Source: Candidatus Cloacimonetes bacterium HGW-Cloacimonetes-3 (lineage in GTDB: Bacteria > Cloacimonadota > Cloacimonadia > Cloacimonadales > Cloacimonadaceae). From it: DNA of 64,000 nt. Below, piece by piece: positions 2,140 to 17,549 of the stretch. The notes under the pieces were generated by a model. The model was not told where the DNA came from and did no database searches. It saw only the letters and a program-made list of their open reading frames with translations. How positions within the stretch are numbered: position 1 is the stretch's first letter; every line of letters starts with the position of its first letter. The translations under genes were made by a program, and so were the position numbers. Location: assembly GCA_002840645.1 (NCBI GenBank), contig PHBO01000004.1, positions 1-64,000 of the forward strand. The letters are read 5' to 3'.

Positions 2140-2167
2140 GGGCAAACACAGGGGTTTGCCCCTACAG
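2140..2167 (+). repeat. Hairpin repeat, family C (uninterrupted copy)
   Basis: GGGCAAAC pairs with GTTTGCCC around an ACAGGG loop, followed by CTACAG. The same element occurs inverted at about 14472-14497 and direct at 14534-14558. In the last copy the group II intron is inserted between CCCCTA and CAG, so this copy shows the empty site. Confidence 0.7.
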
Positions 2168-11388: not shown

Positions 11389-12498
11389 CTAACCTCTGTA
11401 CAGTGCCGTGTAAGATGCTATCATGGCGGGATAGTTGCACAGCTCAGTTATTCGTTTTGCGGCATGCTTCCCCTTTTCATAGGCGGGCTGGAAGTTCCCG
11501 GCTAGCTGCACAAACAGGTTTGTTAGTGCGGCATCATCATCCAAAGTAACAAGATAGCCGCTCTCCTCATCCACCAATTCTCTTATGGATGGGATATCCG
11601 AGCCGATCACGGGTAAGCCGGAGCTCATAGCTTCGATGATGCTGAAGGGTTGAGCTTCCCAACGCGAGTACAGCACGAAAGCGTTAAACACCTTCAGCCA
11701 CGGCACAATATCGCTGTCCCAACCGGGAAGCAGGATTTGCCCGCTCACATTGTAGCTATGCACAATGGTTTGGCACAGCTCAAAGTGCTCGCCATCGCCA
11801 AGGATTATAAAGCGTAGTTTAGGCGTTAGCGCGCAGGCTTTACATGCTGCGGTGATCAGCCGAATAACGTTCTTCTGGGTGGAAAACCGCAGGGTAGAGC
11901 CAATAATAACCTCAGCATCAGGCAGTTTCCGTCCAGCGGCAATATGTCCCAGTTGTGCGGTTAATGCAGGAGGGATGGCGTTATATATCGTGCTTGCCTT
12001 GGCTGCGGGTAACAGATGCATGCTGAGGCACTTCTCTCTCTCGCAGTTGTTTACAAACACCGTTTTATGTCCGATGTAATTACCCACAAACTCCATAAGC
12101 GCGTAAAAGCGGTAAGCATAGGGCGATTGGCTATCCTGAAAGGCAGTTCCATGCTCTGTGTGCACAATCAGCTTCACTCCACACAACCGCGCTGCAAGGC
12201 GTCCCAATAAGCCCGGTTTGGAGCTGTTGGTGTGCACTATATCAAACTTATGGCGCAGCAACAGCCACAACAGATGAACAAAGGTTAAGGTATCTGATAT
12301 GGAGATGGGGTGTCTGAAGGTTGGCAGCGGGATAAAGCGGTATCCGCGCTGGATCACTTCTGCGCAGAATTCACCCCCGGGCTTGGCTGCCACATAAATG
12401 CTGAATTCGTTCTTATCCAGCCCATCCAGCAAGTGCAGGCTAAAGCGCTGCACTCCCGATAGCAAGGGGAGTAACTGGATGTGGAGCAGTTTCTTCAT
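11389..12498 (-). CDS. Glycosyltransferase family 4 (GT-B fold)
   Basis: The 369-residue enzyme starts with the GT4 N-terminal segment (LLHIQLLPLLSGVQRFSLHL) that binds the acceptor. It carries the Glu-containing donor motif SRWEAQPFSIIEAMSSGLPV near residue 285. HTNSSKPGLLGRLAARLCG and HTEHG are typical of lipid-linked glycan glycosyltransferases. It would add a sugar to the undecaprenyl-linked product of the WecA-like enzyme four bases downstream. Its ATG overlaps the preceding gene by four bases. Sugar specificity cannot be read from sequence. Confidence 0.88.
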   Translation of the reverse strand: MKKLLHIQLLPLLSGVQRFSLHLLDGLDKNEFSIYVAAKPGGEFCAEVIQRGYRFIPLPTFRHPISISDTLTFVHLLWLLLRHKFDIVHTNSSKPGLLGRLAARLCGVKLIVHTEHGTAFQDSQSPYAYRFYALMEFVGNYIGHKTVFVNNCEREKCLSMHLLPAAKASTIYNAIPPALTAQLGHIAAGRKLPDAEVIIGSTLRFSTQKNVIRLITAACKACALTPKLRFIILGDGEHFELCQTIVHSYNVSGQILLPGWDSDIVPWLKVFNAFVLYSRWEAQPFSIIEAMSSGLPVIGSDIPSIRELVDEESGYLVTLDDDAALTNLFVQLAGNFQPAYEKGKHAAKRITELCNYPAMIASYTALYRG

Positions 12499-14162
12499 GC
12501 GTTTTTATTAAGGCGGATCACTGCGATAGAATCGGCTTTCACGTTAGTAAAATGGACGGTATTACCCTCAAATTTGGCACTAACACCCACAATTTCCTGT
12601 ATCTTGGGATCACCATGAACGCTCAGCACGAAGCTATCCAAATCGTCTGGGAAAATGATGCTAATTTCATATTCGCCTTCATCTATAGTAACGTTGCGGC
12701 GTTTTTCCCACCAGGTTGCGATCTCCGCTGCGGTAGCCAGATAGTTATTACCGCTTTTCACCAAAGCAAGGATATAGGCATAAAGCTTGTTACAGTAATG
12801 AATATCGCTGTAACTGGCGATGGAGAAATCCACACTGAATATCCCGTGAGAACGGGTAGCCTGATGGTAGAACTTCTTTATCTGGTGTTTGGCATCTTCA
12901 AGCTGCACCAGCTTATGTTTGTTTAGTTTTAAGTGCTTGTCGCAGTATAGGGTAGGTAATTCCAGATATTCTGCTCGGTTGCCGGATATCCAGGGGTTCC
13001 AGGGCAGGGAAATACCTTTGATAAACCCTGGCGCACTGTGAAAGGCAGTGCTTTGGCTGAAACTTGGGGAAATCTTGTTTAGCAAATCACGGGTGGTTTC
13101 ATTGCTTTTAAAACCACACATGCGAACCCCGATTTGCTCCTTATTTAACTGATGCAAAAGGATTTGCTTGCGGGTAAGGAAGTCGTCCCTATTTAGCTTA
13201 TCAGCAGTGGCGAGCAGGGCAATATCGTTTCCTTCGCGGATTATCTGCTGTAGTTCTTCCTGCAAATCGGCGTCTTCCAGGCTGTAATCTATATCTTCAC
13301 ACGGCTCTGTGGCAAGAAAGTAGGTGCTGCGGCAGTTGGAATCCCGTTCCAGTTGGCGAAACTCTGCAAAATTCCAGTAAAGCTCATAGTTTGTAAACAG
13401 ATACTTCATTTTTCCGGCGATGTTGTGCCCCAGCTGTTTCCATTTCAGGCTGAAAAGCATTGCCAGATCATCCGCCACGGACAGCACCAGTGACGACAAA
13501 TCCCACTTCTGCAGGTCGTCTATGCTATGCGACAGCATTACGGCAGATTGCTGAGCTGCAGGCCAAAACAGCTTTTGGGCGATGAAGCTTTTTTTTGCAC
13601 GGCAATGTTCTTTAATCATGCTATCCACCAGCCACAACAGGTTATCCACAATGGGTGTTTCGCGATAGTTAAAAAATGCGCCGGCAGAATCAGGGTAGTA
13701 GCCGCCTTGCAGAGCCTGAGAATCTGTACTTTCCTCCAGATTGGCAAGATGGAAGAATATGTTGCCCACCAGATCAAAATTGATCTTACCGCCATTAACG
13801 TCTGTTTCGCTATAGTTTTCGGCAAGGTACTCAAATTTGCGTGCCGAGATTACAGGGGTAACGGACAGCAGCTTAACCTCGCGCAAACTACGGCGCAAGC
13901 GGTCAGCAGTATAGGCTTTGGGGTCGTACAGTTCAAAATCGCAGGGGATGAAGAAGGTTATATAATACTTGGCTAATTCCTTCAATTCTTCCGGTGTTGG
14001 CTCGGTGAGACCATAGATTAAGAAGATGTCATTAGATTTTAGTTCTTTTGTGTCTGTTATAAAACGAATTCTGTATCCCAGACTGTCGAAAATGAAACGA
14101 AACGCATACTTCATTTCCTTGTGAAAGCGTGATAGTTTGGGGTCTATGATTATTGATACCAT
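12495..14162 (-). CDS. Divergent polysaccharide deacetylase-like protein, 555 aa
   Basis: The N-terminal 150 residues are alpha/beta and unassigned. From about residue 205 the segment AVMLSHSIDDLQKW resembles motif 1 of NodB-fold deacetylases in the long T/S-H-D/S-V/I-D-D variant of cell-surface deacetylases. Later segments (GNDIALLATADKL, GVRMCGFKSN, HGIFSVDFSI) fit the rest of such a barrel but lack the clear His-x3-His metal site. A beta-sandwich-like tail ends the protein. First gene of the minus-strand glycan operon; it overlaps the GT4 gene by four bases. Deacetylase activity is uncertain. Confidence 0.6.
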   Translation of the reverse strand: MVSIIIDPKLSRFHKEMKYAFRFIFDSLGYRIRFITDTKELKSNDIFLIYGLTEPTPEELKELAKYYITFFIPCDFELYDPKAYTADRLRRSLREVKLLSVTPVISARKFEYLAENYSETDVNGGKINFDLVGNIFFHLANLEESTDSQALQGGYYPDSAGAFFNYRETPIVDNLLWLVDSMIKEHCRAKKSFIAQKLFWPAAQQSAVMLSHSIDDLQKWDLSSLVLSVADDLAMLFSLKWKQLGHNIAGKMKYLFTNYELYWNFAEFRQLERDSNCRSTYFLATEPCEDIDYSLEDADLQEELQQIIREGNDIALLATADKLNRDDFLTRKQILLHQLNKEQIGVRMCGFKSNETTRDLLNKISPSFSQSTAFHSAPGFIKGISLPWNPWISGNRAEYLELPTLYCDKHLKLNKHKLVQLEDAKHQIKKFYHQATRSHGIFSVDFSIASYSDIHYCNKLYAYILALVKSGNNYLATAAEIATWWEKRRNVTIDEGEYEISIIFPDDLDSFVLSVHGDPKIQEIVGVSAKFEGNTVHFTNVKADSIAVIRLNKNA

Positions 14163-14415
14163 GAGTATTTCTTTACCGCCAATTCCATTTTGTGGCAGGA
14201 GATAATTGTTTCATGCTGCTGTCAAGTGAAATCCTAACTTATCGCTACAAATCTATAAAACAGGTATTATTGTAAAGGAATTTCCATCCTTGTTCCTTGC
14301 GAGCAAAACGCTTTCAAACTTCACAAAGAGATGTTTAGGTCAGGTATGCTAAGGGTTATCCTGCACGTAAGCATGATGTAAGCAATTGGAAACATGAAGC
14401 AATAGCGGTAGCATT

Positions 14416-14452
14416 GCCCACCCATTGCCCTCTTTGTGGGCAATGGGTGGGC
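14416..14452 (+). repeat. Intergenic palindromic repeat, family B
   Basis: GCCCACCCATTGCCC (14416-14430) and GGGCAATGGGTGGGC (14438-14452) are perfect 15-bp arms with the loop TCTTTGT. The trailing segment is diverged compared with other copies. 14163-14415 contains no gene and no other clear signal. Confidence 0.75.
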
Positions 14453-14471
14453 TATAATAGGACAATCCTCG

Positions 14472-14558
14472 TAGGGGCGGATCCCCGTGTCCGCCCTAAA
14501 CATAATCATGACAAGCGACAGACAGATACAATAGGGCAGACACAGGGGTCTGCCCCTA
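14472..14558 (+). repeat. Inverted pair of family C hairpin repeats
   Basis: An inverted copy (TAGGGGCGGATCCCCGTGTC..., 14472-14497) and a direct copy (GGGCAGAC/GTCTGCCC, 14534-14555, then CTA) flank about 36 bp. Together they look like a small inverted-repeat element. The group II intron starts at the base after CCCCTA of the direct copy. Confidence 0.65.
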
Positions 14559-16430
14559 GTGCGCCTGTGAGCGCTACATATCAGAAGGGTGAGAGTCCCT
14601 TTCAGAGTAACGTCAAGCTCTGTAGCTGAAGGTAACTGCGTCACCGTGAGGTGGGGTGGAGAGCAACCGGAAGCGAAAGACCAGTCCGTAGGATAACGAA
14701 CTCGATTCGGCAGGATAAGTTGTCGAGCCTCCTAAGGGAAGGTGAAGACTAAAACCTGGAAATGGCACAGCGGGTGGAACTGCTGTCTCCCTTCGGGAAA
14801 GCCTGAGTGGTTGAAGAACGTAAATACAAGCCAACTCAGGAGCTATCATGTGGTTGGAGACGGAATGGTCGGGAAGGTAAGTATCGTTAAGCAGGGAGAC
14901 CTGTCAGTTGAATGAGAGACTGACAGGAGTCAGAGTGTCCATATTAGCGTTGATACTTGGGACAACATAACCCAAGAGGAGCAAAGGGACACAGGAAAAC
15001 AGATTTTGATAAGGAGTATCAATGGAAGAGCAACGTTCGTCAGTGCCGGAAACGGCTACACAAGAGCGAAATATCCCTTCCCGCTGGGACTGGGTAGAAC
15101 CATTAGTATGGACGGACAAAATGCTGGCAGCCCTCGAGAGAGGAGTCAAAGGTGGAAAGTGGTTCAGTTTGATTGACAAGGTGTGGAGTATTCCAAACCT
15201 GCAATCAGCCTGGAAGAAGGTAGCGTCAAACCGAGGCAGTGCGGGTATTGATAACGTAAGTATCAAGCACTACCGGAGGCACGCAGAACAACGTCTTAAC
15301 CGCACCTCAGAGCTACTGAAGCATGATAAGTATCAACCAGCCGGTGTTAAGCGGGTCTGGATTGACAAAGCAGGTAGCAAAGAGAAGAGACCATTGGGAA
15401 TACCAACTGTTACAGACAGGGTGGTGCAAACCGCATTACGCAACGTCATAGAGCCTATCTTTGAGTTAGAATTCTCGGAATATAGTTACGGCTTCCGTCC
15501 CCACAGATCATGTAAAGATGCCCTCAGAAGAGTCGATGGACTACTGAAGATAGGCTACAAATATGTGGTGGATGCAGACCTGAAAGGATACTTTGATAGT
15601 ATCCCGCAGGATAGGCTGATGAAACTGGTGGAAGAGAAGATAGCCGATAGCCGGGTTCTGGATTTGTTGAATAAGTATCTCTCGCAGAAAGTGATAGATA
15701 CAGCAGCAAGCTGGATACCGGAAACAGGCACCCCTCAAGGAGCGGTAATAAGTCCACTGCTTGCCAATATCTATCTGAATCCTTTGGATTGGAAGATGGC
15801 AGTTAGCGACTTTGCCATGACCCGCTATGCGGATGATTTTGTGGTGATGTGCAAAACACAGGCAGAAGCAGAAATAGCACTGGAAATGATCAAGGAGTGG
15901 ACGGAATCAGTAGGTTTGACCCTACACCCGACCAAAACCAAGATCGTTAATGCCGATGAGGACATCTTTGAATTTCTTGGTTACAAATTCAAGCAAGGGA
16001 TGAAGTTCCCGAGTGACAAGAGTATCACGAAGTTCAGGGACAATATCAGAAAGCAAACCAGACGCACGAATGCTCACAGCCTGCGAACCATCATCGAAAG
16101 GATAAAACCAATCCAAAGAGGTTGGTTTGAGTATTTCAAGCATTGTCACAAGTGCAGCTTCCCCGAACAAGACAGTTGGGTAAGACGCAGACTTCGGAGC
16201 ATCCTGAAAAAGCGGAAGAAACGCAGAGGTATAGCGACAAACATGGAAAACTTCCGATACCCCAATAAAACCTTTGATAACTGTGGGTTCTTCTCACTCG
16301 TCAGAGCCCATAGCGAATTATGCCGGTCTCTTAAATGAGATACCTGTTTTCTGGAGAGCCGTATGCGGGAGAACCGCACGTACGGTTCGGAGGGAGGGGT
16401 GTCCAGTAATGGGTACACCCCTACCCCTAT
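14559..16430 (+). mobile_element. Group II intron with maturase ORF
   Basis: The 5' end GTGCGCC is a standard bacterial group II start. The following 460 bases hold the structured domains I-IV 5' part (for example GGGTGAGAGTCCC). The maturase gene lies in domain IV. Domain V is at 16356-16388 (GAGCCGTATGCGGGAGAACC... to CGTACGGTTC) and the domain VI stem at about 16391-16427. The 3' end TAT at 16430 is set by comparison with the empty repeat at 2140-2167: exon sequences CCCCTA and CAG join across the intron. The total is 1872 bases and all parts look intact. Confidence 0.9.
15022..16338 (+). CDS. ltrA: Group II intron reverse transcriptase/maturase
   Basis: The 438-residue protein has RT motifs in order: NRGSAGIDNVS (near 70), PLGIPTVTDRVVQTAL, SYGFRPHRSCKDAL, VVDADLKGYFDSI, GTPQGAVISPLLANIYL and the catalytic YADD at 269-272. 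The maturase X domain contains IQRGWFEYF. There is no C-terminal HNH endonuclease, so mobility would rely on reverse splicing without second-strand cleavage. GATAAGGAGT precedes the ATG. It lies in domain IV of the intron and needs the intron RNA to act. Confidence 0.95.
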   Translation: MEEQRSSVPETATQERNIPSRWDWVEPLVWTDKMLAALERGVKGGKWFSLIDKVWSIPNLQSAWKKVASNRGSAGIDNVSIKHYRRHAEQRLNRTSELLKHDKYQPAGVKRVWIDKAGSKEKRPLGIPTVTDRVVQTALRNVIEPIFELEFSEYSYGFRPHRSCKDALRRVDGLLKIGYKYVVDADLKGYFDSIPQDRLMKLVEEKIADSRVLDLLNKYLSQKVIDTAASWIPETGTPQGAVISPLLANIYLNPLDWKMAVSDFAMTRYADDFVVMCKTQAEAEIALEMIKEWTESVGLTLHPTKTKIVNADEDIFEFLGYKFKQGMKFPSDKSITKFRDNIRKQTRRTNAHSLRTIIERIKPIQRGWFEYFKHCHKCSFPEQDSWVRRRLRSILKKRKKRRGIATNMENFRYPNKTFDNCGFFSLVRAHSELCRSLK

Positions 16431-16461
16431 CAGGTTTCACTTGGCACGAAATAACTAAACC

Positions 16462-16691: not shown

Positions 16692-17549
16692 ATGAAAGGT
16701 ATTATACTCGCCGGTGGTGCCGGCACCCGTTTACACCCGCTGACCATAGCGGTTAGCAAGCAGTTGATGCCGGTTTACGATAAACCGATGATCTACTATC
16801 CTCTTTCGGTGCTGATGCTGGCGGGGATACGCGAAGTGCTGATCATCACCACTCCGGAGGAGCAGGGCAGCTTTATAAAGCTGTTGGGCGACGGCAGCCA
16901 ACTGGGGATGAAGTTCAGCTATGTAAAGCAGGAAGTTCCCAACGGCTTGGCGCAGGCGTTTGTGCTGGGCGCGGAGTTTATTGGCACTGACAGCGTTTGC
17001 CTTATCTTGGGCGATAATATCTTCTACGGTGCGGATATTCAGGGCAGGCTGGGGGAATGTATTGCTCCCGATGGGGCGATAATAACCGCTTACCCCGTGG
17101 TGGATCCGCAGCGCTATGGTGTGGTGGAATTCGCTTCCTGCGGTAAAGTGCTTTCTCTGGAAGAAAAGCCGCAACAGCCCAAATCCAACTATGCGGTGCC
17201 CGGCTTATATTTTTACGATAACAGCGTGGTGGAGATCGCCCGCAAGATACTGCCCTCCGCCCGTGGCGAATACGAGATAACGGATGTGAACAAAGCCTAT
17301 CTGGAGATGGGCAAGCTAAACGTACTGGTGTTCGGGCGCGGCTATGCCTGGCTGGATACCGGAACGTTTGAATCCCTGTTGCAGGCATCGCAGTTCATTG
17401 CGGTGATAGAGCAACGGCAGGGCTTCAAGATCGGCTGTATAGAAGAGATCGCCTTCCGTAAAGGCTTTATAGACAAGGCAAAGCTGTTGCAGATTGCCGA
17501 ACCGATCAGAAAAAGCGGATATGGAGAATATCTGCTTAGCCTGTCCTAA
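16692..17549 (+). CDS. rmlA: Glucose-1-phosphate thymidylyltransferase
   Basis: Makes dTDP-glucose from dTTP and glucose-1-phosphate, the entry to dTDP-deoxysugars. The 285-residue protein begins [17 protein letters not shown] (nucleotide-binding loop with catalytic Arg) and contains [19 protein letters not shown] (metal-binding Asp) and [11 protein letters not shown]. The length is normal for RmlA. rmlB, rmlC and rmlD do not follow. Instead the next genes are for a 3-amino sugar, so dTDP-glucose 4,6-dehydratase must be encoded elsewhere. Confidence 0.95.

Follow-up and report, generated by a model that had tools for sequence, protein, structure and literature searches.

In the text available from a 2015 review, three target habits of group II introns are distinguished, namely, the homing site, the terminator, and attC. 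Introns of group IIC (class C) are found at terminators and attC sites, and the accessible part of PMC7923331 gives their IBS1-EBS1 pairing as 3 to 4 bp. In a 2022 survey, nearly half of the introns located immediately after terminators belonged to other intron-encoded protein (IEP) types, e.g., g6, U1, and U2, which the IEP tree put close to class C (PMC8919778); thus, going by the accessible portion of that survey, insertion beside a hairpin has precedent outside class C. IEP groups g1 to g4 are defined in PMC3552965, according to the part of that source at hand. In Pseudomonas putida, two of nine group II introns were REP associated, as recorded in a 2006 table (PMC1525189, as far as the available excerpt goes).

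We analyzed a window, i.e., the whole stretch of 64,000 nucleotides at the start of contig PHBO01000004.1 of Candidatus Cloacimonetes bacterium HGW-Cloacimonetes-3, whose genome was searched as 2,675,438 bases on 32 contigs. The initial annotation had reported a group II intron in a hairpin repeat at positions 14534 to 16440, and this observation was confirmed; the intron is real, but the reported span also takes in the hairpin and 10 nt of the 3' exon (Table 1). The hallmarks of a group II intron were all found, namely, GUGYG...AY ends, a domain V (60.2 bits; cutoff, 40), a domain VI with a bulged A, which is the eighth base counted from the intron 3' end and the predicted branch point, and a protein with both RT (PF00078, 1.1e-39) and maturase (PF08388, 2.6e-15) domains that scored 375.3 bits against TIGR04416 (cutoff, 300). 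No endonuclease domain was matched in a domain search of this protein. Matches to Candidatus Cloacimonadota relatives had 75 to 82% protein identity. Residues 340 to 436 of the query also matched a Candidatus Kuenenia contig (L045), which, as regards IEP types g6, U1, U2, and F, we treat only as a lead. The intron is flanked by a minus-strand gene (12495 to 14162) and a plus-strand open reading frame (16692 to 17549).

Table 1. Features of the intron, its guide sequence, and its target repeat in the window
Feature	Position	Strand	Description
Unoccupied copy of target repeat	2140..2164	+	GGGCAAACACAGGGGTTTGCCCCTA then CAG
Inverted partner copy	14471..14496	-	Same repeat family as the target hairpin (BIME-like pair)
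REP-like target hairpin	14534..14555	+	GGGCAGAC-ACAGGG-GTCTGCCC; 8-bp stem, 6-nt loop
IBS1	14553..14558	+	CCCCTA; last 3 nt of stem plus 3-nt foot CTA
Complete group II intron	14559..16430	+	1872 nt, GTGCGCC...CCCCTAT; no endonuclease domain match
EBS1	14733..14738	+	TAAGGG; 5/6 pairs with IBS1, A-C mismatch at exon position -3
Intron-encoded protein	15022..16338	+	438 aa; RT (YADD) plus maturase domain
Domain V	16356..16388	+	
Domain VI stem	16392..16426	+	Bulged A at 16423, then CTAT

The sequence reads as the initial annotation had claimed, with the intron between CCCCTA and CAG (the latter being the first 3' exon bases) and directly after the hairpin, since the stem is followed by the foot CTA and then, 3 nt past the stem, by the intron. 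The unoccupied copy had also been held to fix both intron ends. This copy and its CAG are indeed present, but it is a paralogous repeat and therefore, as evidence for the 3' end, offers no more than the C of CTAC; the AG beyond this C is not common to other copies of the repeat. The ends of the window intron are supported by GTGCG, domain VI, the relatives, and the EBS1 pairing, and those of a distant relative by three intron-free sites. No empty ortholog of the intron site was found, as the downstream gene was not beside the upstream gene in the flanks examined; of the eight genomes in the genus, that of the window among them, seven have the upstream gene.

A GTAG start is a trait of REP elements, and the reverse complement of the target repeat begins with GTAG. 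When up to two mismatches were allowed, the repeat was found at 14 places (7 + 7) in the window genome, the occupied one included, compared to none for the reversed-pattern control, in agreement with the earlier claim that the target is a dispersed repeat; many of its sites are vacant. The foot CCCCTA was present in 11 of the 14 copies, and inverted pairs occurred at the intron site (14471 to 14496 with 14534 to 14559) and on contigs 16, 24, and 30 (~136 kb). The family is thus a short dispersed palindrome with a GTAG foot and inverted pairs, as are REPs of the RAYT type; the GTAG foot was not seen in all five other occupied repeat families. Six matches to the Y1 transposase (Y1_Tnp) were present in the window genome, and none of the six had a copy of the target repeat in the flanks examined. 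On viral contigs, five stretches matched a pattern, and none of the five encoded a relative. Other high-copy hairpin families also occur in the window genome (at 14415 to 14452 of the window and in L083 to L102), e.g., GCCCACCCATTGCCC, TCCCATAACCCTCCCGTAT, and GGGCGTTC-CCCCTAC, the last of which has the CCCCTA foot in common with the target repeat.

Many copies of the intron would be expected from the earlier suggestion that the repeat offers it many harmless sites. This was not borne out, in that a family search (E up to 0.001) returned a single group II RT from the window genome, besides which contig 13 (about 102612 to 102685; L004:1454-1527) carries what remains of a related intron, a decayed domain V-VI sequence truncated at its 5' end. 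This relic had an alignment score of 64, whereas none of 300 shuffles scored above 36, and a further copy of the target repeat lies ~330 bp away. One RT copy was likewise present in each of six genomes at E up to 1e-60, despite many vacant targets. Single RT copies in the presence of vacant sites suggest either low activity or assembly collapse, and identical copies could indeed have been collapsed in these metagenome assemblies. The window intron is itself presumably mobile. One RT copy per genome might also mean that another element carried the intron with or beside the repeat, with no targeting by the intron. We consider such hitch-hiking very improbable, given six repeat families in six hosts, an intron 3 to 4 nt past the predicted stem (6 nt in G012 if a shorter hairpin is taken), and an EBS1 largely matched to the site.

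When 124 genomes of the phylum were searched for the protein (E up to 1e-60), matches were obtained in 16, 7 of which (the window's included) contained introns of the window type, with 75 to 100% protein identity. A readable 5' exon was available for six of the seven, and a hairpin precedes each; the seventh, in G007 (L051), has no recognizable 5' end. Along with L051, the clade member L031, which starts inside the open reading frame, was unscored for hairpins, and L026, L049, L050, and L052 were left out as duplicates of L048, L029, L027, and L028, respectively. All six Cloacimonadota introns whose 5' end could be read lie at dispersed host palindromes of six families with 10 to 30 places each. 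Repeat status was determined by pattern searches in seven genomes, with at most two mismatches for the window genome (G000) and G012 and at most three for the others, the occupied site being counted; L030 and L035 were outside this count, and the G000 pattern was searched in its own genome only. The occupied repeat was found at 14 places in its own host for G000, 17 for G039, 28 for G040, 14 for G042, 30 for G009, and 10 for G012, and the reversed-pattern control gave 0 places in every genome tested. For G012, the longer pattern matched only the occupied copy, and the 10 places were obtained with a shorter hairpin pattern; the foot GGTATT was exact in the occupied copy alone, with GGCATT present in 7 of the 10.

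Three of these hosts (G039, G040, and G042) belong to one genus (g8) and have repeat families in common. The G039 pattern was found at 13 places in G040, the G040 pattern at 24 places in G039, and the G042 pattern at 36 and 56 places in G039 and G040, respectively; one repeat family per host is not the case in this genus. The G039 and G040 introns are nearly identical over the 5' part, differ by one base in EBS1, and occupy different families; since these families are common to the genomes of the genus, the introns picked different families from a common stock. The three genomes were also observed to be rich in palindromic repeat families, which partly form closely spaced arrays and differ in copy number between species.

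Folding with DNA parameters was applied to the 32 nt upstream of each intron and, for comparison, to 138 to 764 segments of the same locus. At the window site, 0.3% of 331 local 32-nt segments fold at least as stably. For nine distinct introns, six of which are close kin (the window's and those at 75 to 85% protein identity to it), this fraction was 0.0024 to 0.083 (Fisher P = 1.1e-9), and the predicted stem ends 2 to 4 nt before the intron in eight of the nine. The initial annotation had held that relatives at sites with no upstream hairpin would speak against hairpin targeting; each of the nine distinct introns whose 5' end could be read was preceded by a hairpin, with weak support for one, the betaproteobacterial type. 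L065 to L067, whose site is the same as that of L064, were left out of these counts. In a second group II RT clade of the phylum, which served as a control, no stable hairpin preceded the four introns (of 10 rows) for which a 5' end was found (fractions, 0.17 to 1.0). This second clade (L054 to L063) is widespread in Cloacimonadota, and its domain V differs from that of the window type. L068, a plasmid intron that belongs to neither of these clades, follows a hairpin with a T-run; by eye, no T-run precedes the insertion in the nine distinct exons.

Distant relatives (46 to 48% identity) are present on plasmids of Cupriavidus and Paraburkholderia. These introns start with GTACG and occupy the same hairpin site at all four loci examined, and three intron-free records read straight across it (...GGTTTAGTACAA...). 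At least two and at least four intron places were present in Cupriavidus sp. P-10 and P. aromaticivorans, respectively, one of which was examined in each. The stem is weak and runs to the intron junction, and its stability fraction was 0.075 to 0.14 over the four loci; the hairpin alone is not exceptional at this site. The hairpin at which the distant relatives examined reside, CACTACCGCGTCAGCGGTTTAG, is conserved on betaproteobacterial plasmids (L064 to L067 and L103 to L105), lies near integrase genes in several records, and may mark one end of an element that encodes a recombinase.

The betaproteobacterial site, one hairpin at four loci with recombinase genes near two of the three annotated, is a point in favor of generic targeting, in which any strong hairpin with an EBS1-matching foot would serve and repeats would merely supply many of these. 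So is the observation, in the accessible text of PMC8919778, that introns directly following predicted terminators belong to several IEP types. In a hairpin census of 400 kb of the window genome, where a near-copy was defined over 24 nt with at most two mismatches, 52 of 1590 hairpin feet with a perfect stem of at least 6 bp (3.3%) had a near-copy elsewhere in the sample; when only stems of at least 8 bp were considered, the count was 36 of 140 (26%), and this larger share also speaks for generic targeting. On the other side, all six Cloacimonadota sites are repeats, for which a probability of ~3e-4 was calculated by hand at 26% each, an estimate that assumes that the other genomes resemble the window genome, which is questionable for G039 and G040, as these are rich in repeats. 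The census, which covers the window genome only, favors repeat targeting over generic hairpins. We regard generic targeting as a substantial possibility, though not one that we would expect to prove correct.

When the introns were aligned, one 6-nt segment, located after GAGCC(C/T)(C/G)C, varied with the exon. This segment (EBS1) paired with the last six exon bases at 49 of 54 positions, compared to a permutation mean of 25.8 (P = 5e-6), and the combination came out on top in a scan of 5475 gap-free pairings between exon and intron segments. Pairing extended over both the foot (positions -1 to -3; 26 of 27) and the stem base (positions -4 to -6; 23 of 27; P = 2e-5). The six Cloacimonadota introns alone gave 33 of 36 pairs (P = 0.0026); L030 gave only 4 of 6. 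No EBS2 was visible in the same scan, since the best non-overlapping pair exceeded its expectation by 7.0, compared to 23.2 for EBS1. Likewise, none of the alignment columns within the first 440 intron nt qualified as an EBS3 by fitting the eight readable 3' exons. A GUAGG loop had also been considered as EBS1 and was dropped, since it hardly varies with the site.

The initial annotation had likened the intron to class C and proposed that its class be assigned by RT phylogeny. The insertion after a hairpin would suit a true class C intron located after a terminator-like hairpin, as would the best-scoring solved relatives of the window RT, the GsI-IIC RT and the RT of PDB 7uim, the latter of which we take to be class IIC. 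In a tree of 44 rows, with an unresolved backbone and some long-branched rows, the window RT fell in a clade of 13 rows (support, 100/100) outside the supported class C clade (4 rows; 100/100), which comprised GsI-IIC, the 7uim RT, the second RT of L068, and the integron RT L072, whose class label was taken from its neighbors. The likeness therefore stands for the hairpin just upstream and the absence of an IBS2-EBS2 signal and fails for the RT clade, the T-run, and the IBS1-EBS1 pairing of 3 to 4 bp, since positions -4 to -6 also pair here to give 6 bp. Class C membership was rejected on these last grounds; it is largely refuted, and we consider it improbable.

We think it likely that the window contains a mobile endonuclease-less group II intron of a lineage that uses the hairpins of dispersed REP-like host repeats as its landing site. 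What the intron-protein particle would recognize is the hairpin formed by the repeat, probably while the DNA is single stranded at a replication fork. The 6-nt EBS1 loop would pair with the foot and stem base, which make up the final 6 nt of the 5' exon, and the hairpin would take the place of an IBS2; the intron would then reverse-splice just beyond the foot, and the RT would presumably copy the inserted intron from a replication primer. Upon a switch of repeat family, between or within hosts, EBS1 would be altered to fit the new foot. The stronger proposition, that the lineage homes to REP-like repeats and reprograms its 6-nt guide with each newly adopted family, falls in our judgment just short of an even chance. 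The anatomy, the position of the hairpin, the covariation of EBS1 with IBS1, the lack of a detectable EBS2, and the repeat status of the sites are observed; the single-stranded target, replication priming, present activity, and the order of EBS1 change are inferred.

No description of homing to host repeats with a retuned EBS1 was found in the accessible passages of the open-access literature, a body of text that leaves subscription papers mostly outside. If this reading is true, REP-repeat homing would add a fourth target habit to those in the review, and the lineage would amount to a hairpin-directed targetron that is retuned in nature. It would link the finding of safe sites by endonuclease-less introns with the attraction of REP-like palindromes for mobile elements. 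Moreover, a natural EBS1/IBS1 series with a structured DNA target would permit tests of guide retuning in evolution and would be useful for the design of hairpin-directed targetrons.

Like group IIC introns at terminators or attC, the window intron has no endonuclease domain, is inserted a few nucleotides past a hairpin, and has no detectable EBS2; unlike them, it has an RT outside the class C anchors, an EBS1 of 6 bp rather than 3 to 4 bp, and a target hairpin that is a dispersed host repeat without a T-run. Compared to the g6, U1, and U2 types, the difference lies in repeat targeting, which is proposed for the window clade and absent from the account in PMC8919778, as far as its accessible text goes. 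In P. putida, REP-associated introns were a minority, and the available part of that report gives no EBS1 link or mechanism, whereas here all six scored sites in the phylum are repeats. The insertion sequences that target REPs or BIMEs (PMC1525189) are likewise mobile elements landing at REPs; in the part of that source available, such elements are mostly DNA transposons, whereas the element described here is a retroelement with an RNA guide.
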